From NCBI GenBank assembly GCA_963575655.1, contig CAUYTY010000177.1:1-42973 (forward strand): a stretch of 42,973 bases of DNA, given 5' to 3'. Under the pieces are notes generated by a model, which searched no databases, was not told the DNA's origin, and worked only from the letters and a program-made list of their open reading frames with translations. This DNA comes from Gammaproteobacteria bacterium (lineage in GTDB: Bacteria; Pseudomonadota; Gammaproteobacteria; CAIRSR01). A program made the position numbers and the translations under genes. Of the stretch, positions 21,887 through 36,799 are shown piece by piece; positions within the stretch are counted from its first letter, which is position 1; each line of letters opens with the position of its first letter.

Positions 21887-23338
21887 TTAAAGGAACGGGG
21901 CATCTAAATGCACCCCGGTAATCGTGGTCAGATGGTGGAGAAAATCACTACGCCAGTCTCCACGACTATCGTCATGGTGTGGACGAATTAGATTGACGCC
22001 ACGCTCCAAAGACTCGTAGCTATAGTGCGGCTGATAAAGTCGTGGTGCTTCCATGTTGGTAGGGTGCCATAGATAATAGGGGCCAACATGAGACCATTCG
22101 ACCACACTCACTCCCGCAATTCGCAGTAACAAGGCGACATGGCGGGCGCGCGCGCCTGTCGTAGTACCCAACCCGGCATAGCGTCGCGCACATGGACCGA
22201 GACTACGCATGGCCTCAGGCAATAAAGACGGACCAATGGCGATCCAGGCATCGGTCAATACCCCTTGGGCACGACAAAACTCCCACAAGACGCGACGCTG
22301 CTGACGGTAACGATCGACAGCAGAATCTCGAGCCGAAATAATCTCGAGTAGCCCGAAAAAATGTTCTAAAACCTCTCCGGCCAAATACTGCCCCATGACC
22401 TTACGACTTGGTTCTGAAACCCTCTCCCATGCAGTGTCGAGTCCCCGGAAATCTCCCAGGTGGGTAAATAATAGGTTTCGTATCCCCGCTGGCAATTCTG
22501 TTCCCCGTCCTACCCAAGGTGCCAATATGGCCTCCGCTAAATCAATTGCCCGTGCAGGGAAGCGTAGCTCGGCACCACTATTATCCAACGACAGCGCCAG
22601 TAGTACCCGTAACGCGGCACCAAATCCGTGCGCCACCGCCCCCCCCTCCCCAACCGAATGAAAAGAGGCCACCTCTGCCGCCAAATATTCCCAAGCGGCT
22701 TCCACGAAACGACTTCGGCTCAATTCACCGGTGAGACCAATCGTGGCCAAATAAGGTCCTGGATCGGTTTCCAAAAGGTGACGCGCCAGCAATGCCGGTC
22801 CGTTGGGGGCAAGCAGACCGTGGCGCACGGCAGCACGTCGCACTCGAGCAGCATTCCCCGTGCCTTGAGTAAGTAACTGGATAAGCGTGGTACGCAATGG
22901 CTCTAAACAAGGTCGGCCACTCGGATAAAGGCGTAGATAGGAATTCAGCAAAATTCGCCCACCGAGCACGCCTCCACGTTCTGCTAAAGCCGAGAGATAA
23001 TTGGAAAACAATACTGGGTCGTCAATCGGGGCGGTACACTGGGAAGAAGGGTCGGTTGCGGCGGCGGTGTCACCCAAGGGATTGACATCCAGCATAATCC
23101 AACCACTGGCACGTAACAGGGTCAACGACCACTGTGAAGGCAACAAACCCTCACGTCGAGCGTTCGCCAGGGTGGTACGTAAGGATTGAAGACAATCCGG
23201 AGAAGGACGATGTATTGGCAGACCAACTACTAACTGTCCAACCATTTCCATCGTTGCCATCGCCGTCCGCGATTCTCCAAAGTCAACCGAAGAGAGCGGC
23301 TGCCATTCCGAAAGCCGAGCACGTAGAATACCGCTCAC
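21887..23338 (-). CDS. Uncharacterised 483-residue protein, possibly EH_Signature (ZorC-like)
   Basis: Mostly helical, soluble-looking, with no signal peptide. The C-terminal 72 residues resemble, from memory, the EH_Signature domain found in ZorC of Zorya defence systems. VVEWSHVGPYYLW has its Glu at 414 in the place of the conserved E. It is followed by a tyrosine-rich stretch and RPHHDDSRGDW (H454/H455, W462) at the H position, then a final helix. Upstream, LLNSYLRLYP and DPGPYLATIGLTGELSR fit the helical N-terminal region of that family. The GTG start at 23338 has only a weak ribosome site, and a start near residue 27 is possible. It is divergent from the OmpA/TPR-CHAT ORFs, which share its 142-nt upstream region. 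No MotA- or SNF2-like genes are in the window. The family call is tentative. Confidence 0.5.
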   Translation of the reverse strand: MSGILRARLSEWQPLSSVDFGESRTAMATMEMVGQLVVGLPIHRPSPDCLQSLRTTLANARREGLLPSQWSLTLLRASGWIMLDVNPLGDTAAATDPSSQCTAPIDDPVLFSNYLSALAERGGVLGGRILLNSYLRLYPSGRPCLEPLRTTLIQLLTQGTGNAARVRRAAVRHGLLAPNGPALLARHLLETDPGPYLATIGLTGELSRSRFVEAAWEYLAAEVASFHSVGEGGAVAHGFGAALRVLLALSLDNSGAELRFPARAIDLAEAILAPWVGRGTELPAGIRNLLFTHLGDFRGLDTAWERVSEPSRKVMGQYLAGEVLEHFFGLLEIISARDSAVDRYRQQRRVLWEFCRAQGVLTDAWIAIGPSLLPEAMRSLGPCARRYAGLGTTTGARARHVALLLRIAGVSVVEWSHVGPYYLWHPTNMEAPRLYQPHYSYESLERGVNLIRPHHDDSRGDWRSDFLHHLTTITGVHLDAPFL

Positions 23339-23480: not shown

Positions 23481-24335
23481 ATGAGTGGACTACTCTATAA
23501 AACAGGGAAGCCATCTAATCCGATATTCGGGCTAGTATTATTAACAATGCTGATTGCGGTGCAGATTCCTGTTCAAAGCGAGGGATTTACCAAAGAGTGG
23601 GTATCCCAGGATACTACGGTTAGGCCGTCAACAGCATCGACTAAATATCGCGTTACCGATTCTCCACTGGTAACGCAGGTCATCGATCTCAATATTACCT
23701 TTGGACCCAACACCATCGCCGTACCCCCCAAAGTCAGAAAATCACTCAATAGCCTAGCTGCGGCTCTCAATACGCCGGCTTTTGCCAGTTCTCGACTACG
23801 AATCTCTGGCTACAGCGACTCCAGTGGTTCAGAAATAACCAACCAACATCTATCTCAACAACGCGCCGATTCGGTTCGTATCTATTTGATCACCCATGGC
23901 GTATCGAACAAGCGTTTGTCTGCGATCGGCTATGGTTCTAAACATCTCAAATTTCCGAAACGTCCCAAGGATGAAAAGAATCGACGAATTGAAATAGTAG
24001 CCGTCGGACGAACATTGCTACCCCTAGAGATATTACAATCATCGACGTTAGCGATCTCCCCTCCCCCCCCTATCTCAGCATTGCCAACACCCGCAGTCGA
24101 ACGCTCAACATCCATAGCAACAATATCCCAACCACCTCGGGAAACTGCGCCAAGAGAAATCGCACCAGCCTCACCAAAAATAGAAAATTCGCCAAGAGCA
24201 TCAGGCAGCGAGCCACCGAAAAAGATGGGAGCGGAATTATTATCACCCCCCCCCCCGCAGAGTTCTCTCCCTCTCTCATCGATAGAGCAAGGAATTCCTC
24301 AGACGAACAACCACCACGACCAGAACATGCACTAG
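23481..24335 (+). CDS. OmpA-domain protein; 5' part of a possible OmpA-TPR-CHAT gene
   Basis: A 284-residue ORF with AGGGA 8 nt upstream of its ATG. Residues 14-33 are a hydrophobic signal or anchor. An OmpA C-terminal peptidoglycan-binding domain spans about 68-175: NITFGPNTIAVPP, then GYSDSSGSEITNQHLSQQRA with the conserved Asp, and KNRRIEIV with the conserved Arg. A Pro/Ser-rich linker follows. At an 11-C tract (24246-24256) this frame runs on only 26 residues to a TAG. The -1 frame stays open across the tract into the TPR-CHAT ORF. One extra C, or two fewer, would join both ORFs into about 1397 residues. ZorB of Zorya also carries an OmpA-like domain, but this protein looks secreted or anchored rather than MotB-like. 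Confidence 0.8.
   Translation: MSGLLYKTGKPSNPIFGLVLLTMLIAVQIPVQSEGFTKEWVSQDTTVRPSTASTKYRVTDSPLVTQVIDLNITFGPNTIAVPPKVRKSLNSLAAALNTPAFASSRLRISGYSDSSGSEITNQHLSQQRADSVRIYLITHGVSNKRLSAIGYGSKHLKFPKRPKDEKNRRIEIVAVGRTLLPLEILQSSTLAISPPPPISALPTPAVERSTSIATISQPPRETAPREIAPASPKIENSPRASGSEPPKKMGAELLSPPPPQSSLPLSSIEQGIPQTNNHHDQNMH
24246..24256 (+). repeat. Poly-C tract (11 nt), candidate frame switch
   Basis: Eleven consecutive C lie in the coding linker of the OmpA ORF, a length prone to slippage. Upstream the frame encodes OmpA. Downstream the frame that matches the TPR-CHAT ORF is open from the tract to the first ATG at 24437 without a stop. A second, 8-nt C tract lies at 24063-24070. Confidence 0.7.
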
Positions 24336-24436
24336 GCATCCCGTCACTCCCCCTCTCTGCGGAATTTGGAGAAAAAGATAGTGATTCTCAAAATTCACAA
24401 GAGTCCCCGGAAATACTCACCTCCGTCAAAACGGAG

Positions 24437-27400
24437 ATGACCTACTCAACTGCGCCAATCATTTCTCCCTCCGTCACCCCATCCTTGCAACTGGATGCAG
24501 AAAAGGTTTCTATTCCACCACTTGCTAGCGCCGAACGTAATCAGGTTAGAGAGTCTACCCAACCCGCGCCGATATCTCCACAACCAGACACTACGCCGCC
24601 AAGAATGATTGCCATCCCACCTGCTGCTAGTATCGAGCGTAATCAGGTTGGAGAGGTTAATTCAGCCACACCGTCCCCTTCACTTCAAGGGGATAGCATA
24701 CCTGTGGCTACATCTCTAACACCGGTGTCCTCACCACCTTCCGCGACGCCAACAGATTCTCAGAATCTACTAAACTCAACGAACTCGTTGCCACTGATAA
24801 ATCCACAAGGTTCACTAGCAACAATCAGTCCGATATCGGTTACACCTATTATCGACACATCTCAACCAGGCAGAGATAATATCAGCAAACCGCTCCTGAA
24901 CAACATTCAGAAATCAACTGCCATTAATTCTGGAAAGTCGCAGGAGACTACTATAGAAAAGCCAGCAGAAGCTGAATCTGCTCAACCGGTAGCAACCGAC
25001 TACGCCGAAGAAGATCTCTTGGCCCTGGCCGAATCATACGATGATCAAGGTCGCTACGGAGACGCCGAATCGCTCTACAAACGTTTCCTAGCCATTCGTG
25101 GAAAAACCTCGGGGTTGCATCATTCCGAGGTGGGCCGATGCCTCAATGGATTGGCTGTACTCTATGAGGAGCAAGGACGTTATCAGGAGGCAGAATCATT
25201 GTATAAACAGGCCCTGGCCATTCGAGAACAGACTCTGCCCCCCAATCACCCCGATATCGCTACCAGTCTCAATAATCTGGCCGAGTGGTACCGTAATCAG
25301 GGTCGTTATGCAGAGGCCGAACCGCTGCATCAACGCGCATTGGCGATCCGAATCCAGGCATTGGGACCCAGTCACCCCAATGTCGCCCAAAGTCTCAATA
25401 ATCTAGCCGCCTGGTACGATGATCAGGGGCGTGATAACGAGGCTGAACCACTATATCAGCGTGCCCAGATCATCTGGACGCAAACCCTGGGACCTAATCA
25501 CCCCAACGTTGCCACCGTCCTTGGCAATCTGGCTAGGTTGTACGGCGACCAAGACCGTTATCGAGAGACCGTAACCTTGATTGATCGTGCTCGGACAATT
25601 TGGGCACAGACTTTAGAAATTAACCAGCCAGTGACCGGATCACCCGAAAGTAACAACTTTCCCACCAACTACGGACAAGATGCCCTCAGTAGCCGCGCTA
25701 TCGCGGCATTAGAACGTCTCCGACAGATCAATGCAACCTTACGCCGACGTTTGATCACAAAAGCGAACCGCCTTCCTACTGAGGGCAAGAGTAATATTGA
25801 CACCACAGTGGGCGGCAATGCTATCGGTACCCCTGGCGAGAAAACAAGCAACGATGCCCGTGGAGGAACTTCTCCCGTGAATCCGCTCGATCTCCTCGCC
25901 ACATACCTCGGCGAAGATCCTGCGCTACGGCCCTTTCTAATTGCCGAGGGATTCGAGATAGGTCAACTACTCCATGATGAGTTAATTAAGGAACCACTGA
26001 CCCAGGCAGCTACACGTTATGCCATGGCTAATGGCCCTTTGCTGGTTTTGAAACACGACTATAATGAAATCCTACCCATCTGGGAAAAGGCCGATACCGA
26101 ATTACTTGCCATCACTAATCAACCACTAGACCAATCTCCACCAGCCACCAAACGGATACTCCGCGACTATACCCACGCACTCAGCAGGAAACTGGATAAC
26201 ATCGATCTACGAGTCGATCGGGAATTCCCTACCTATGCCAAATTGACCCAGCAACTTCCCATTTCTCTTGAACAGCTTCAGGCATTGCTGCACCCAGAAG
26301 AGGCATTGTTGGCCTATGCTATTGGTAACGGAAAGGGGGATCAGACCTCTTATGTCTGGCTCATTCGCACCAATCATGCGAGTGTCCGCCGTTTACCATT
26401 CGGTAATGAAAGACTGCGACAGCGCATCGCTGTTTTGCGCGCCCAACTTAACCCCGAGGGAGATCCGTGGTCAATGGTTTTTCCCGTAGCAGATGCCTAT
26501 GCGTTGTTTCAGGATCTAATGGGACCAGAAGCGGCGAGACTTGATGGAATTAAGACACTATTCATCGTGCCTGACGGCGCATTGGAACGGCTGCCGTTCT
26601 CGGTATTGGTGACCGAACCCTCTCCCACCGGAGAAATTAATTATCAGAAGGTTGCCTGGCTGGTACGGCAATGGGCGACCGTAACTCTTCCCTCCGTTGC
26701 TTCACTACGCACGCTGCGCGCCATGCCCATAGCCCCCAAGGCACGCGAATCGTTTATTGGTTTCGGTAATCCTAATCTGGGGGTCCTCCCTCCTCAAGCT
26801 TCTACGCAAAAGGAAGAGGGGAAGGAGGAAACTCCACCAATCCCGACCAATACGGTAGATACAGAAATTACCGGCGCCACTCCCAAAAAACGACATACCC
26901 GCACCAAAGCGTCGCCCATACTAAAGGTAGTAACAACCACGATAACCGTCCCTGCCGTAGCACTTCCGTCTATCATGGCCACCACAGCTAGCGTGGCATT
27001 AACTAATCGTCTCATCGCAGATCCGAATCAACTTCGTACCTCGCTTCCCTCTTTACCAGAAACGGCTGACGAGATGAAAGCAATTTCCATCAACCTTGGC
27101 GCCAAACCAGACGGATTGAATCTGGAGGAACGTGCCAGTGTCAACATGGTACGCATTGCCAATCTGGTAAATTACCGGGTGGTTGCATTCGCCACCCCGG
27201 TACTGATAGACGGAAATTTCGAGGGTTTGGCCGAACCGGCTCTTGTCCTTACCCCACCACAGAATCCAACCTCCGACAATGACGGACTACTACGTGCATC
27301 GCAGATAGCACGACTGCGATTAGACGCCGACTGGGTATTGCTCCCTATCTGCAATACTGCCATGAACCAGAACGCTAGTAAGGAGATTGGTATCCCAGGT

Positions 27401-27673
27401 CTATCAGGATTATCCAAAGCATTCTTCCAGGCAGGAGCGCGGGCATTGTTGGTATCGCACTGGCCAACCCGACCCGAACCAACCGTGGCACTAATTACAG
27501 ATATGCTCCACACCTGGCAAACCCACCCAGAACTCGACCGTGCTGCGGCACTACGCCATTCGATAATAACTTTTCTTGATTCCCCGCAAACCGATCCACG
27601 TTATCTCCATCCGGTGATATGGGCGCCATTTATCATTGAGGGCGAAAATATCAGAGGTCGCGACACAAATTAA
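24437..27673 (+). CDS. TPR-CHAT domain protein; 3' part of a possible OmpA-TPR-CHAT gene
   Basis: A 1078-residue ORF with a Pro/Ser-rich N-terminus (about 1-185) containing a repeated ERNQV motif. Next come five 42-residue kinesin-light-chain-type TPRs (about 190-400; LNNLAEWYRNQGRYAEAEPL, NHPDIA and similar) and a C-terminal CHAT domain (about 610-1070). CHAT domains are caspase-like proteases with a His-Cys dyad. Here the Cys is kept (LPICNTA, C972), but the His position reads AFATPVL with P921 instead of ATHG, so catalysis is doubtful. FIVPDGALERLPFSVL, LLRASQIARLRLDAD and ARALLVSHWPTRPEP are typical. The ATG at 24437 has GGAG directly adjoining it and no properly spaced ribosome site, which supports translation as part of the upstream OmpA frame. 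Confidence 0.85.
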   Translation: MTYSTAPIISPSVTPSLQLDAEKVSIPPLASAERNQVRESTQPAPISPQPDTTPPRMIAIPPAASIERNQVGEVNSATPSPSLQGDSIPVATSLTPVSSPPSATPTDSQNLLNSTNSLPLINPQGSLATISPISVTPIIDTSQPGRDNISKPLLNNIQKSTAINSGKSQETTIEKPAEAESAQPVATDYAEEDLLALAESYDDQGRYGDAESLYKRFLAIRGKTSGLHHSEVGRCLNGLAVLYEEQGRYQEAESLYKQALAIREQTLPPNHPDIATSLNNLAEWYRNQGRYAEAEPLHQRALAIRIQALGPSHPNVAQSLNNLAAWYDDQGRDNEAEPLYQRAQIIWTQTLGPNHPNVATVLGNLARLYGDQDRYRETVTLIDRARTIWAQTLEINQPVTGSPESNNFPTNYGQDALSSRAIAALERLRQINATLRRRLITKANRLPTEGKSNIDTTVGGNAIGTPGEKTSNDARGGTSPVNPLDLLATYLGEDPALRPFLIAEGFEIGQLLHDELIKEPLTQAATRYAMANGPLLVLKHDYNEILPIWEKADTELLAITNQPLDQSPPATKRILRDYTHALSRKLDNIDLRVDREFPTYAKLTQQLPISLEQLQALLHPEEALLAYAIGNGKGDQTSYVWLIRTNHASVRRLPFGNERLRQRIAVLRAQLNPEGDPWSMVFPVADAYALFQDLMGPEAARLDGIKTLFIVPDGALERLPFSVLVTEPSPTGEINYQKVAWLVRQWATVTLPSVASLRTLRAMPIAPKARESFIGFGNPNLGVLPPQASTQKEEGKEETPPIPTNTVDTEITGATPKKRHTRTKASPILKVVTTTITVPAVALPSIMATTASVALTNRLIADPNQLRTSLPSLPETADEMKAISINLGAKPDGLNLEERASVNMVRIANLVNYRVVAFATPVLIDGNFEGLAEPALVLTPPQNPTSDNDGLLRASQIARLRLDADWVLLPICNTAMNQNASKEIGIPGLSGLSKAFFQAGARALLVSHWPTRPEPTVALITDMLHTWQTHPELDRAAALRHSIITFLDSPQTDPRYLHPVIWAPFIIEGENIRGRDTN

Positions 27674-30547: not shown

Positions 30548-33500
30548 TTAGTCTCTGCTACCTCCTAGAACGGGGTTCGTAGCGGACGCAACCGTAAAGT
30601 ACTGAGTCGCAGTCGTTGCAGGGTTGTAATTGCCATTCCCTCCCTGACTCGCCCTCAAGACGCAGACACCGGCGCTCACCAGGGTTACCGTGCTTCCTGA
30701 CACGGTGCACACCGTTTGCGTTGCGCTTGAGAAACTCACCGTCAAACCAGAGTTAACCGTAGCCGCCACCGAGAAAGGCAGATCACCCAAGGTCTTGTTA
30801 CTCAAAGAACCGAAGGTGATAGTCTGGGTTGCCTTGGCGATGTTCAAAACACCGCTACGGCTACCCGTATAACCTGCCTCGGTAACCGTACAACGCACAC
30901 CATAGTTACCCGCATTGACGCGACCAGTACCCGAACCAAGGTCCGTATAGGTGGTCGCCGTACCCAATCCAGCCGGTGTAGTGGTGCAGGTGGCTGATTT
31001 CTGGTTACCGTCATAGGTCTGAGTAAGCGCTCCTAGGGCGACTGTAGCCGAAACAGTGGCGCCAGTAATATCAAAGCTCTGGCTCACCGCCGTGGCAGCG
31101 TTGTAATTAACGTTACCACTCTGGCTCGCCTGTAGGGTGCAAGTTCCCGTTCCCACCAAGGTCACGGTATTGCTCGCTACCGTACACACCCCACTGGTGA
31201 GGCTCGCAATGTTTACCGCGAGACCAGACGTAGAGCTGGCGGTCACGGCAAAGGACGCACTACCAAGAGTCTTGTTAGCCAGGGGAGCGAAAGTGATGAC
31301 TTGTCCCCGCTGGTTAATGACCAAGGTACCCGTGGCACTACCGCTGTAACCCATCTGGGTCACGGCGCAGCTCACCCCATAACTACCGGTGTTAATTCGC
31401 CCGAGACCAGACCCTAAGTCACTGTAGGTAAGACTGGTCGCGAGCATGATCTGGCCCGCCCCGCTCCCGAATCGAGCATCGCAAGCAGCACTCCGTATAC
31501 CACCGTTGTAGGTATAGGTAAGGTTACTGAGGGTAACCCTGGCCTGTGCAGGGTTCACCGTAAAGCTCCGTTCCACGGCAGGGGCAGCGTTGTAGTTGAC
31601 GTTTCCGGCCTGTGTCACCCGTACCGTGCAGGTTCCAAGGCCCACCAGAGTTACTCCAGCCATAAACTGGGTCGGAGTAACAGTGCATACCTGGGGAGTG
31701 GTCCCTACAAAGCTCACGAGCAACCCAGAAGTAGCCGTAGCCTTGATGACAAAGGGTGGCTCTCCATAGGTCCTATCGGGTAGTGAAGTCATATTGACCA
31801 TCTGATCACCCTTCTCAACCGTGACGTTACTGGTCACCTGAGGGGCCGCCCGATAGTTGGCGTCACCGGCTTGGTTGGCAACAATCGTGCAGCTACCCAC
31901 CTTGACCCCAGTTACAGCACCACCGTTTACCGTGCAGAAACCAGGCGTAGTCGTTCTAAAGCTCACCATCAGCCCGGAAGAGGCCGTAGCACTGAGCAAC
32001 GATGTCGCCCCTGCCTTCAACGTGGCCGGATTGAGCCCGATCACACCGATGGTTTGGTCGCCCTGACCCACCGTAAGCGTTGCCACTACCTTTTCAGCGG
32101 GGTAGTAGAAACTATTACCAGGCTGATCGGCAGCGATGGTGCAGCTACCAATGGCGATACCGGATACGGTGTTACCACTGACGGTGCAGGTATTCGGAGT
32201 AGCCGAGCTAAAGACCACCGCGAGACCAGAACTGACCGAGGTATTTGCCCTAATGCTCGTCCCCGCCGTCAGCGTGGAGGGGGTAAAGCTGATCGGGGAG
32301 ATAGTCTGAGCGCCTTTGACGATCAAGGATCCGGTCACCTGGGGCGCTGGGTTGTAGTTAGCGTCACCGGCTTGGTCCGCCGCTACAACGCAGGAGCCAA
32401 CACTGACCCCGGTCACCGTATTACCACTCACGGTGCAAACGGTCGGCGTGGTAGAACTAAAGGTCAACGGACTGCTCGACGCCCCACCACCTGCCACTCC
32501 AGCCGTAACGGCGCCACCAATCGCCAAAACAGGTGGGGTAAAGCTAATACCACCCACGATGGCCTGACTGCCTTTGCCGATCACGATATCCTGCGTCACC
32601 TGGTTGGCAGCCGTGTAATTGGCCGCACTGGCCTGATTGGCCGCCACGGTACAAGTTGCCGCACGGAGACCAGTGACCACGTTGCCGCTTACCGAGCAAA
32701 CCGTAGGCGTGGTAGAGCTAAAGGTGACTGGATTACCCGAGGCCCCTCCAACTGCGGAGACCACCCCAGTGCCACCCACCACCACAGCCGGGGCCGCATT
32801 AAAGCGGATCGTCTGCTTGGCCTCGGCGATAAAGAGTCGGCCACTAGCACTACCGGTGTAGCCCGTCTGATTGACCGCGCAGGTCACGCCGTATTCCCCA
32901 GCGTTGATCCGACTCGTTCCAAAGCCTACGTCGCTGTAGGTAATGTCGGTAGTAAGCCCTTCAGGCGTAGTAGCGCAGGCACCTACTTTCGCGGTCCCAT
33001 CGTAAGTCTGATTAAGCCCACCCAAAGTAACCGTAGCCCCCACAATACGTACCTTGATATCCGTTCCGAGCAGGGTAAAACTTCCCGGCGCGAAAGACCC
33101 CGTCAATTTAATCACCAGGTCGGCACCCGGTGCAGCATTGGTACCGATATAGAGCATCGTCATTCCATTCGCGGGCGACGATACCTGCACCTGATTATTC
33201 CCAACGGTGGTTCCATCCCCCAGAGTAACGTCACTCGAAAAATTGACTCCTTCGACACGAATCGTACTCTGTGTGGACAGATCGGTAATGGTATCAACCC
33301 CCTGACCAGCTCCGCCCGCGTAGTAATAGAAGATGTCATTACCCGCTCCACCGGTTAACGTATCATCACCACCACCACCGATTAGGAAGTCGTTTCCGTT
33401 ACCGCCACGCAGAATATCCACCCCACCTGTCCCATATAAGCGGTCGTTTCCTGCTCCACCATCAAGAGTTCCACCACCACCCCATATTCCATCATCTCCG

Positions 33501-36500
33501 CTAGAACCTGTGGTGACAGTATTTGAATCTGCTGCCATCGGAGTCGCATGAGTAAGTGAACCCACCATCATCCCTGTAGTTCGTGCTTCGCCAATCTTGA
33601 GCCAAACACCGGTACTACCGTAATTGTCACCAAGACTCACACTAATCGAACTTGATTGGAGTGAAGAAAGATTAACTGTATTCAGCGTCGTGGAACACGA
33701 AGCTACCGTTGCCCCACCCTGGTCGTCGTAATTGCTCGTGCTTATATTCTCCGTCAAGCTTCCGTTATTATTGATTCGGAAGTGAGCGTATAACCAAACA
33801 TTCTGCGGTAACACCGTGCTTCCGTTCCAACTGTGATCGGTGGTCGTACCGCATCCCAATCCTGCCATCGGGCTACTCACCCCAACACCTACACCCATAT
33901 AACCTGGTCCACCGTTTACCATCCACTTCACATACAGATCGGAACTTCGTAGGTCATAGACTTGTCGTGCAAGTAATCCCGACCCTCTACGATAACCAGC
34001 ACCATAAATTTTGATGCCATCTGTTTCTTCTACAACCGTAGGAGTAGGATAACCTTGCCACCAAATTGGCAACCAATTCAGCGCATTCCCCGGAATAAGA
34101 TTCGCGAACACGGTAAAGCTTTGGCTCACTCGTGGGGCAGCGTTGAAATTGGTATTACCGGCTTGGTCAGCGGCGACGGTGCAGGTACCCACGGTATTGA
34201 GGGTCACGGTATTACCACTTACCGAGCAAACGGAGGACGTCGTGGAACTAAAACTAGCCGCAAGACCAGAACTGGTCGTGGCTGCTACTGTGAATGGCGC
34301 ATCACCGTAGACTTTCTGAACCAAGGGGGCAAAGGTGATCGTTTGATCCGCCTTGACAACGGTCTGGCCCAGAGTGGCAGAACTTCCGGTATAGGCACTA
34401 TTACCGCTGTAGGTAGCGGTCACGGTATGAGTACCCGCGCTCAGAGTAGAAACAACGCAAGTCGCCACACCATTACTCACCGTCGCAGGATTGGCAGCGG
34501 CGCAAGAAAGCATCGTTCCGCCTTCTTGGAAACTAACAGTGCCGCCCGCCGCAACCGGAGAAACATTGGCCGTCAGGGTAATCGGAGTACCGTATGCAGA
34601 AGCCGGGGGAGGAGTAATCGAGACTTGAACATTGTCTAGGCCCCAACCTTCGTCACCTGGACCTTGATTTGGCGTACCCGTAAAGGTCAATGCGAGAGTA
34701 TTTGCAGCGTGATCGAACGTGTAAGAGAGGCGATAGATCGCATCCCTCCAACCACTCCCAAAGAAATATCCCGTGCTAAACGCACCAGTATCCGGTGAGA
34801 AAGATCCACCTGGACCATAGGGTGGCAATTGATTGGGGTAAGTCTGGCTAACATCACTACCACCCACATCAGTGTGAGCAAAGTTTGTAAATAGTAGGTT
34901 GTTCCCATCAGCAGTTAATTGCCAATTATCTGGACCACAGCAGTGAGTTCCTCTTCCATCCCATGAGTCAATGGTATACAAATCGAAATTCACCGTCACC
35001 TTAGTGTGGGCTGGCAGACTATTTAAACTCAAGATGTCAGAGCCGGAACCAAATCCATAAGTACTTGCCCCGAGGAAAGATTCACCATTACTGGCCACCG
35101 CCGTCGTTCGATTCGACCACTCAGGACCCGCACCGGCGCTAAAGTCATTGGAATAGACCACCGTCGGCGTCGGAGAAGCCGTATTACTGGAACTCAGGGT
35201 GGTGGTAGTCGTTGCCTGTACTACCTGGGTCAGATTGGCGGTACTGGGGAGATAGTTGGCATTGCCGGCATAGTTGACCACTACCGCGTGACTACCAGGG
35301 GTAAGCGAGGTGGTGGTATAGCTAGCCTGACCATTCACCAGGCTGGCAAGACCGGCTGTAGCGCCATCGATAGTAAAGATGACGGTACCGGTGGGGCTAG
35401 GTGATTGCGGAGTTACGCTGGCAGTGAAGGTAACGCTCTGATTCACAACCACGGGGTTGGCAGTAGCCGTCAAGGCAACCCGTGAAGAGACCGCAGGCGC
35501 GGGTACCGTAACCGCTTGACTGACACTCTGAACCGGGAAATTCGTACCTACCGCATTGGCCGAGAAGGTGAGTACCCCGGTGGCCGCACCTGTGGCGCGT
35601 ACGCTCCAAGAGGCCTGCCCAGTAGCGCCAGGATTGATCGTACCGATGGTCTGGCTCAGGTTACCGGAGACTAACGCCAGGCCAGCGGGCAGGGTCAGGG
35701 TCGTGGTCATGCCAGAGAGCGCCGTTGACCCTGTATTGGCCACGTAGACCGTGATCGGGAAGGGGTTGGGGCTGTAACTACCGTTCACAACGGTCAGTTC
35801 CATCGGGTCGCTTAGGGCAATTGACCCGCTAACCGTCACTCCGCTGAGACCGTAGTAGGTGGTGCGAGTGATCGACTGACCAGGCGCAAGGGTCACCGGA
35901 TTCCAATAAACCGCTACCGCACTGTCGCTAGTCACTCCGATTCCGGTGTTCACGGCAAAGTCCCATGAGGTACCGTAGATACGCGGCCAAGAGACAAAGA
36001 CAACTCGGTCGGGAAGTGCGCCCGCATCCAGGAGGGTACCGCGCGCACTGGTAGCACTGGAGTCTGTCAAACTTTCAAAAGCCTCCCAATAGATCGGTAC
36101 GGCCGTCCCGATGAATTCCCGCTCCGTCGTAATCTCACCCACATTGGGCACCCGGAAGGGGGCACCATCATTTCTGCCCAACATGGTGTCCAGCATGACG
36201 CGAACGCCGGCAGTGTGCGCAACCGTGCTGGTGTTGTTCAAAACGTAAGAAATCTTGAGGGTATCCGCACGCCCGGAACTACCATTGATGATCTGTAGAC
36301 TCTGGGTAACATTGACACCACCCAAGCTCCACACCCCCTCATTTGTAGTGGCGTTGATGTCTCTTGGAGCAGTTAGCATGGCGCCAAACGAGGGCCGATC
36401 CACATAATCGGTACCATCGACCTTGACCGTCGTCACCGACGACCATGGATACGGATGACCGTAGAGCAGAATCGGACCGGACGGAATACCACAGGTGAAG

Positions 36501-36799
36501 GGGCCATTCGAGGCAACCGCCGCCCCCAAGTAGCTACTGGTCACATTGGGCGCTAACGCCCGTGCCGCAGAGGACCCACCAGGGGGTCGTGCGGGCAAGA
36601 TGGACACCGGTCCCTTTGGTTTCTTGTTGCTGTACTTAAGATTTTCATAATTCTCTGCACTACTGGCAGAGCCAGAGGCGACCGCATCGGAGGTAAGCTC
36701 GATCAAGTCATTAGGTGTGAGCGGCTGGGCGTTCAGGGGAACAACCGACAGCAGCAGCGCACCCAGAATCACCAGGAAAACACCAATTCTGTGTTTCAT
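30548..36799 (-). CDS. Giant secreted protein with Ig-like, MBG-like and RTX repeats
   Basis: 2083 residues with a signal peptide (1-24, ending PLNA). The N-terminal ~330 residues have an unrecognised beta-rich domain. Then come CARDB/DUF11-like and BIG_3-like modules (about 330-540 and 725-810) and a lectin-like region (about 540-725, starting VVYSNDFSAG). A further beta domain at about 897-1080 is followed by RTX calcium nonapeptides at about 1095-1160 (GGAGNDRLYG, GGNGNDFLIG, GGAGNDIFYY). The C-terminal half is eight ~80-residue repeats in all, one of them before the RTX block, each with paired Cys (VCTVSGN...GTCTVAADQAG.ANY). Three MBG-like QTYDG...YGV.C.V...GYTGS units alternate with them. 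It is likely an exported adhesin or matrix protein. RTX suggests type I secretion, but a Sec signal is present and no exporter gene is nearby. Confidence 0.85.
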   Translation of the reverse strand: MKHRIGVFLVILGALLLSVVPLNAQPLTPNDLIELTSDAVASGSASSAENYENLKYSNKKPKGPVSILPARPPGGSSAARALAPNVTSSYLGAAVASNGPFTCGIPSGPILLYGHPYPWSSVTTVKVDGTDYVDRPSFGAMLTAPRDINATTNEGVWSLGGVNVTQSLQIINGSSGRADTLKISYVLNNTSTVAHTAGVRVMLDTMLGRNDGAPFRVPNVGEITTEREFIGTAVPIYWEAFESLTDSSATSARGTLLDAGALPDRVVFVSWPRIYGTSWDFAVNTGIGVTSDSAVAVYWNPVTLAPGQSITRTTYYGLSGVTVSGSIALSDPMELTVVNGSYSPNPFPITVYVANTGSTALSGMTTTLTLPAGLALVSGNLSQTIGTINPGATGQASWSVRATGAATGVLTFSANAVGTNFPVQSVSQAVTVPAPAVSSRVALTATANPVVVNQSVTFTASVTPQSPSPTGTVIFTIDGATAGLASLVNGQASYTTTSLTPGSHAVVVNYAGNANYLPSTANLTQVVQATTTTTLSSSNTASPTPTVVYSNDFSAGAGPEWSNRTTAVASNGESFLGASTYGFGSGSDILSLNSLPAHTKVTVNFDLYTIDSWDGRGTHCCGPDNWQLTADGNNLLFTNFAHTDVGGSDVSQTYPNQLPPYGPGGSFSPDTGAFSTGYFFGSGWRDAIYRLSYTFDHAANTLALTFTGTPNQGPGDEGWGLDNVQVSITPPPASAYGTPITLTANVSPVAAGGTVSFQEGGTMLSCAAANPATVSNGVATCVVSTLSAGTHTVTATYSGNSAYTGSSATLGQTVVKADQTITFAPLVQKVYGDAPFTVAATTSSGLAASFSSTTSSVCSVSGNTVTLNTVGTCTVAADQAGNTNFNAAPRVSQSFTVFANLIPGNALNWLPIWWQGYPTPTVVEETDGIKIYGAGYRRGSGLLARQVYDLRSSDLYVKWMVNGGPGYMGVGVGVSSPMAGLGCGTTTDHSWNGSTVLPQNVWLYAHFRINNNGSLTENISTSNYDDQGGATVASCSTTLNTVNLSSLQSSSISVSLGDNYGSTGVWLKIGEARTTGMMVGSLTHATPMAADSNTVTTGSSGDDGIWGGGGTLDGGAGNDRLYGTGGVDILRGGNGNDFLIGGGGDDTLTGGAGNDIFYYYAGGAGQGVDTITDLSTQSTIRVEGVNFSSDVTLGDGTTVGNNQVQVSSPANGMTMLYIGTNAAPGADLVIKLTGSFAPGSFTLLGTDIKVRIVGATVTLGGLNQTYDGTAKVGACATTPEGLTTDITYSDVGFGTSRINAGEYGVTCAVNQTGYTGSASGRLFIAEAKQTIRFNAAPAVVVGGTGVVSAVGGASGNPVTFSSTTPTVCSVSGNVVTGLRAATCTVAANQASAANYTAANQVTQDIVIGKGSQAIVGGISFTPPVLAIGGAVTAGVAGGGASSSPLTFSSTTPTVCTVSGNTVTGVSVGSCVVAADQAGDANYNPAPQVTGSLIVKGAQTISPISFTPSTLTAGTSIRANTSVSSGLAVVFSSATPNTCTVSGNTVSGIAIGSCTIAADQPGNSFYYPAEKVVATLTVGQGDQTIGVIGLNPATLKAGATSLLSATASSGLMVSFRTTTPGFCTVNGGAVTGVKVGSCTIVANQAGDANYRAAPQVTSNVTVEKGDQMVNMTSLPDRTYGEPPFVIKATATSGLLVSFVGTTPQVCTVTPTQFMAGVTLVGLGTCTVRVTQAGNVNYNAAPAVERSFTVNPAQARVTLSNLTYTYNGGIRSAACDARFGSGAGQIMLATSLTYSDLGSGLGRINTGSYGVSCAVTQMGYSGSATGTLVINQRGQVITFAPLANKTLGSASFAVTASSTSGLAVNIASLTSGVCTVASNTVTLVGTGTCTLQASQSGNVNYNAATAVSQSFDITGATVSATVALGALTQTYDGNQKSATCTTTPAGLGTATTYTDLGSGTGRVNAGNYGVRCTVTEAGYTGSRSGVLNIAKATQTITFGSLSNKTLGDLPFSVAATVNSGLTVSFSSATQTVCTVSGSTVTLVSAGVCVLRASQGGNGNYNPATTATQYFTVASATNPVLGGSRD

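Follow-up and report, generated by a model that had tools for sequence, protein, structure and literature searches.

The window (the whole stretch of DNA analyzed here, 42,973 nucleotides) is one complete contig of a 4.2-Mb, 261-contig assembly. Two open reading frames on its forward strand, an OmpA ORF and a TPR-CHAT ORF, lie beside a divergent gene with an EH_Signature domain, and Pfam searches of the window returned an OmpA domain (3.4e-19), TPRs (TPR_10, five stretches), and a CHAT domain (2.1e-38). The TPR-CHAT frame is offset by +2 relative to the OmpA frame, and a tract of 12 or 9 C residues where the assembly has 11 would join the two. A first-pass annotation of this DNA had proposed that the two ORFs are one gene switched by this tract; the positions that it gave for the ORFs and the tract, and the difference of one frame between them, were all confirmed. 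The features considered below are as follows.

21887–23338, minus strand: EH_Signature (ZorC-like) gene, the divergent neighbor (PF15611, 1.2e-26; PADLOC ZorC, 7.4e-53; synteny).
23481–24335, plus strand: 5' part of the gene as assembled (OmpA ORF, 284 aa), with an N-terminal hydrophobic export segment, the OmpA domain, and the start of a Pro/Ser-rich linker (Pfam; AAGG; homolog on G002:C2).
24063–24070, plus strand: 8-C tract in the linker (frame model log-likelihood ∼38 units worse than at the 11-C tract).
24201–24335, plus strand: interval in which the OmpA frame changes to the TPR-CHAT frame (single-switch posterior of the linker frame model; contains the 11-C tract).
24246–24256, plus strand: 11-C tract, the sole long homopolymer in the frame-change interval, its recorded length unreliable (sequence; genome-wide tract test).
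24284–24352, plus strand: linker stretch ARNSSDEQPPRPEHALGIPSLPL in the TPR-CHAT frame, which matches AAETTEESSTKSEHAMGTPTLPL of a continuous OmpA frame in the related genome G002 (ungapped score 58).
24437–27673, plus strand: 3' part of the gene as listed (TPR-CHAT ORF, 1078 aa), with the remaining linker, five TPRs, and CHAT (Pfam; ATG with neither a spaced Shine-Dalgarno (SD) sequence nor a signal peptide).
27197–27199, plus strand: position of the CHAT catalytic His, here CCG (Pro) (FATPV versus FATHG/FATHA in 5/5 aligned relatives).
27350–27352, plus strand: CHAT catalytic Cys, kept in an altered context (LPICNTA versus LSACNTA; alignment).

Reading frame of the linker and extent of the gene

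The TPR-CHAT frame is free of stop codons over 1226 codons (stop to stop), from the mid-23990s onward, and carries a strong coding signal downstream. It is therefore open from the poly-C tract through 24437, as the first-pass annotation had stated, and both the arithmetic and the Pfam matches agree with its claim that 12 or 9 C residues would give a single protein of ∼1397 codons with OmpA, linker, five TPRs, and CHAT.

Within the linker, a standard codon model was unusable, since it disagreed with the amino acid composition ahead of the 11-C tract. Synonymous codon usage was set aside as well, because it showed the same disagreement and failed on known coding linker too. For these reasons, we used a frame model trained on the undisputed coding linker (24437–24994). 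This model placed a single frame change in the interval that contains the 11-C tract, and a model trained on the G002 linker preferred the same frames on either side of the tract. The linker frame model excluded both the 8-C tract, which the first-pass annotation had left unmentioned, as the switch point and a pair of shifts at the 8-C and 11-C tracts. A frameshift-aware alignment to the whole G002 protein put the shift at 24284 through a weak pairing of Pro-rich sequence; the break was not placed by this alignment.

In G002, which belongs to the same family as the source genome, a syntenic OmpA homolog (contig C2, 42% identical) lies in the same divergent arrangement, an EH_Signature gene followed by the OmpA gene. 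The OmpA frame of G002 stays open through its Pro-rich linker, without a change of frame, until the contig ends. The ungapped match between ARNSSDEQPPRPEHALGIPSLPL and AAETTEESSTKSEHAMGTPTLPL sits 85 to 153 bases upstream of the ATG at 24437, and its score was reached by shuffled sequences in 1/1000, 3/2000, and 0/2000 cases under three schemes. The available sequence of the G002 linker contains no long C tract.

The search for a homolog with a continuous OmpA-TPR-CHAT frame, which had been proposed as a check, succeeded for OmpA and linker in G002. A complete frame was seen in no genome: the G002 contig stops within the linker, short of TPR and CHAT sequence, and the TPR-CHAT contig of G003, a metagenome-assembled genome of the same family ("uncultured Thiotrichales"), begins within the TPRs. 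Two further G002 contigs (C91 and C260), considered as the rest of its OmpA gene, are not a continuation of it.

The start signals of the two ORFs differ. The OmpA ATG at 23481 is preceded by AAGG at a spacing of 9, whereas a GGAG directly abuts the ATG at 24437 (spacing 0) and other nearby in-frame starts have no spaced SD, as had been claimed for this ORF. Since 16% of random positions carry a four-base SD match, the contrast taken alone is weak evidence. A promoter for the TPR-CHAT ORF, which would have spoken against a single gene, was looked for ahead of 24437 and was not found. By inspection, TPR-CHAT relatives with a readable complete N terminus open with a hydrophobic export-type segment, and the window ORF, unlike them, has none at its start at 24437.

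Given the continuous frame of the syntenic G002 gene, the single change placed by the linker frame model, the lack of start signals at 24437, and the export-type N termini of TPR-CHAT relatives, the OmpA and TPR-CHAT ORFs are most likely one gene of ∼1397 codons.

Domains of the protein and the CHAT active site

The OmpA domain occupies residues 73–168 of the protein. Like OmpA C-terminal-like or Pal-type domains, it gives a full-length match to PF00691, including the SDSSG and LSQQRAD motif regions; it differs from them in that a Pro/Ser linker connects it to TPR-CHAT. G002 shares the two residues that we take to bind the peptide, the Asp of SDSSG and the Arg of LSQQRAD. At the N terminus, a hydrophobic segment (IFGLVLLTMLIAVQI) that follows KTGKPSNP is, by inspection, a putative signal or anchor. 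Solved structures matched only the TPRs, and most of them were kinesin light chains.

The CHAT match spans profile positions 4–288 of 289 (PF12770). Of the His-Cys dyad, the Cys is retained and the His is replaced by Pro, a change that the first-pass annotation had not noted. At CHAT columns that are invariant in the other five sequences, the window has 13 changes versus 6 in G003, its closest relative (p = 0.17). Because this difference is not significant, and because two relatives that retain the His show 12 and 15 changes at the corresponding columns, we read the window protein as a pseudoprotease, whether decaying or not; the loss of the His makes it probable that the protein either is a pseudoprotease or is decaying. 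Annotation as two ORFs had most likely concealed an OmpA-TPR-CHAT protein whose active site is dead.

TPR-CHAT proteins exported by members of the same bacterial class (on G343:C163, G341:C10, and G070:C249; signal peptide, TPRs, and PF12770) share with the window protein a TPR array followed by CHAT, and CHAT-region identity between the window and TPR-CHAT relatives is 37–55%. In the exported relatives examined, the OmpA domain is absent and the catalytic His is intact, whereas the window protein has an OmpA domain and a long linker ahead of the TPRs and has Pro in place of the His. From its domains alone, the protein is most likely an exported, cell wall–bound TPR scaffold. In such an arrangement, the N-terminal signal segment would export the protein, the OmpA domain would anchor it to the cell wall, the Pro/Ser-rich linker would span the periplasm, the TPRs would bind a partner, and the CHAT fold would serve as a scaffold and not as a protease.

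Long C/G tracts and the cause of the frame break

The reading frame on both sides of C/G tracts was tested with a codon model from the source genome. The test drew on a sample of ∼0.56 Mb, on almost every internal tract of exactly 10 or 11, and on some of those of 9 and 12. Among classifiable cases in this genome, the frame was kept at 54/55 tracts of 7–8 (broken at 1/55), at 11/18 tracts of 9 (a partial sample), and at 7/28 tracts of at least 10, with 21/28 broken; the difference in frame breaks between tracts of 7–8 and tracts of at least 10 is strong (Fisher p ∼1e-12). Earlier runs with other thresholds agree on frame breaks at long tracts. About half of the tracts of at least 10 were unclassifiable, including the 11-C tract of the window, because it lies in a linker with atypical coding sequence.

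Among the broken genes are lysA, carB, purL, cysG, and rng, each split at a long tract into halves that match adjoining parts of one NCBIfam profile. In lysA, for example, the two frames match profile positions 4–237 and 235–416. These five were checked by profile, and the remaining frame calls rest on codon usage. It is unlikely that lysA, carB, purL, cysG, and rng are all off. When the same classifier was applied to two same-family genomes (G002 and G003), the frame was kept at 14/15 tracts and broken at 1/15, the classifiable tracts there all being 10 or 11 long. The difference between the source genome and these relatives has a Fisher p of ∼1e-4, computed with an earlier count of 12 to 1 for the relatives.

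An 11-C tract is nothing unusual here: the source genome records 36 tracts that are exactly 10 long and 29 that are exactly 11 long, several of them contig-end junk. A count of 468 overlapping C10 matches was discarded as inflated by such junk. Alternating poly-C and poly-G runs that resemble read or assembly junk are present at the contig ends of L027 (1500–1748) and L051 (1480–1720). Frame breaks at C/G tracts of at least 9 are scattered through the source genome (G000; for example, in L071, L130, L132, L151, and L152), and nearly all of these tracts are one base too long.

Since long C/G tracts break ordinary and often essential genes here and do not do so in two relatives, an error of length in the assembly is the default reading of such a break. 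In this assembly, the length recorded for an 11-C tract is no evidence about biology, and C/G tracts of at least 10 in this public assembly are unusable for inferring phase variation or pseudogenes.

At tracts of at least 10, 20/21 breaks belong to the class "one base too many," and the 11-C tract of the window belongs to the opposite class, one too short or two too long. Its class is shared by one other tract of at least 10 (L147, 11 G) and one 9-mer (L200). The 11-G tract of L147 (1077–1087) lies in an RCC1-like repeat protein. The usual one-base overcall would leave the window gene out of frame, so real slippage or decay keeps some weight.

Taking these data together, we think it probable, with a good deal of room for doubt, that the window carries one gene of ∼1397 codons whose frame is broken by a wrongly recorded length of the 11-C tract, as at most C/G tracts of at least 10 in this assembly. 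From the behavior of tracts across the genome, the 11-C tract itself is most likely among the wrongly recorded ones. Our confidence in an assembly error stops at this level because of the opposite error class, which leaves weight to slippage and decay. Sequencing error and decay had both been named earlier as alternatives to switching; the tract test now favors sequencing or assembly error, and decay ranks below it.

Decay, in which the gene is truly out of frame, the tract having slipped without selection after the CHAT active site was already lost, is an appreciable but minor possibility. It would account for the Pro at the catalytic His and the altered SAC motif, and for the 13 window-only changes at otherwise invariant CHAT columns compared with 6 in the closest relative; also in its favor, a typical one-base error at the tract would leave the frame broken. 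Against it stand the long stop-free downstream frame and its strong coding signal, and the counts of changes neither differ significantly nor exceed those of both His-intact relatives.

Phase variation, with genuine differences in tract length from cell to cell and an assembly that happened to sample the OFF state, in which OmpA is made free of TPR-CHAT, is improbable. Simple-sequence contingency loci have been surveyed in Neisseria (PMC5084427) and Campylobacter (PMC6321876). The window gene resembles them: it encodes an envelope protein, and its coding sequence holds a long C tract, a homopolymer that sets the frame within the interval of change. The linker around the tract would tolerate change, the protein is exported, and the single gene is otherwise intact. 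Unlike at those loci, no length variation was observed at the window tract, a second allele was not found in the assembly, and the available G002 linker sequence does not conserve the tract as a switch. Nor are out-of-frame tracts in this genome concentrated in surface or dispensable genes; the breaks fall in the five housekeeping genes named above and in others. Of the proposal of one gene switched by the 11-C tract, the single gene is well supported and the switching is not.

A fuller version of the switching account, in which an exported OmpA-linker-TPR-CHAT pseudoprotease, paired with the divergent orphan ZorC-like gene, is truly switched between a short wall-bound OmpA form and the full-length form by its poly-C tract, one of a larger group of C/G tracts that vary in the lineage, is more doubtful still. 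If switching were real, this would be an unusual case of a periplasmic CHAT protein turned on and off.

Recoding, by which transcriptional slippage or ribosomal frameshifting on poly-C would yield some full-length protein, possibly as a habit of the whole organism, fits the many frame breaks at tracts of at least 10 and their mostly single direction. We consider it very unlikely, because same-family relatives keep frame at such tracts, in-frame 10-, 11-, and 12-mers are also present in the source genome, the shift needed at the window tract is of the opposite class to nearly all others, and the homopolymer junk at contig ends is a sign of poor reads or assembly. Equally remote is a pair of separate genes, in which TPR-CHAT would be translated on its own alongside a short OmpA protein. 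Although both ORFs have an ATG as assembled, 24437 lacks a spaced SD, a promoter, and the signal peptide of its relatives, and the downstream frame ahead of that ATG is homologous to the continuous frame of G002.

The divergent ZorC-like gene and its surroundings

Relatives of the ZorC-like gene were present in all three same-family genomes searched (G001, G002, and G003), at 57–60% identity. The gene lies beside an OmpA gene only in the window and G002, and its surroundings differ in G001 and G003. Among the close neighbors read in the window, G001, and G003, no other Zorya genes were recognized; the close neighbors in the window do not supply the ZorA, ZorB, ZorC, and ZorD set of Zorya type I, and the ZorC-like gene is an orphan there, as it is in G001 and G003.

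The OmpA protein of the window matches ZorB weakly (1.8e-6). As in Zorya, in which ZorB has an OmpA/MotB domain and ZorC an EH_Signature domain, the EH_Signature gene of the window adjoins an OmpA-domain gene. Unlike in Zorya, the two genes are divergent, no ZorA- or ZorD-like gene was recognized beside them, and the OmpA protein carries TPR-CHAT.

Adjoining matches to ZorA, ZorB, and ZorC of Zorya type I are present elsewhere in G002 (L243, G002:C223, 216–5339), separate from its OmpA locus. They are followed by an open frame that is cut by the contig end and may be ZorD. Farther along the window, a 2083-aa ORF on the minus strand (30548–36799) apparently consists of repeated Ig-like or MBG-type segments.
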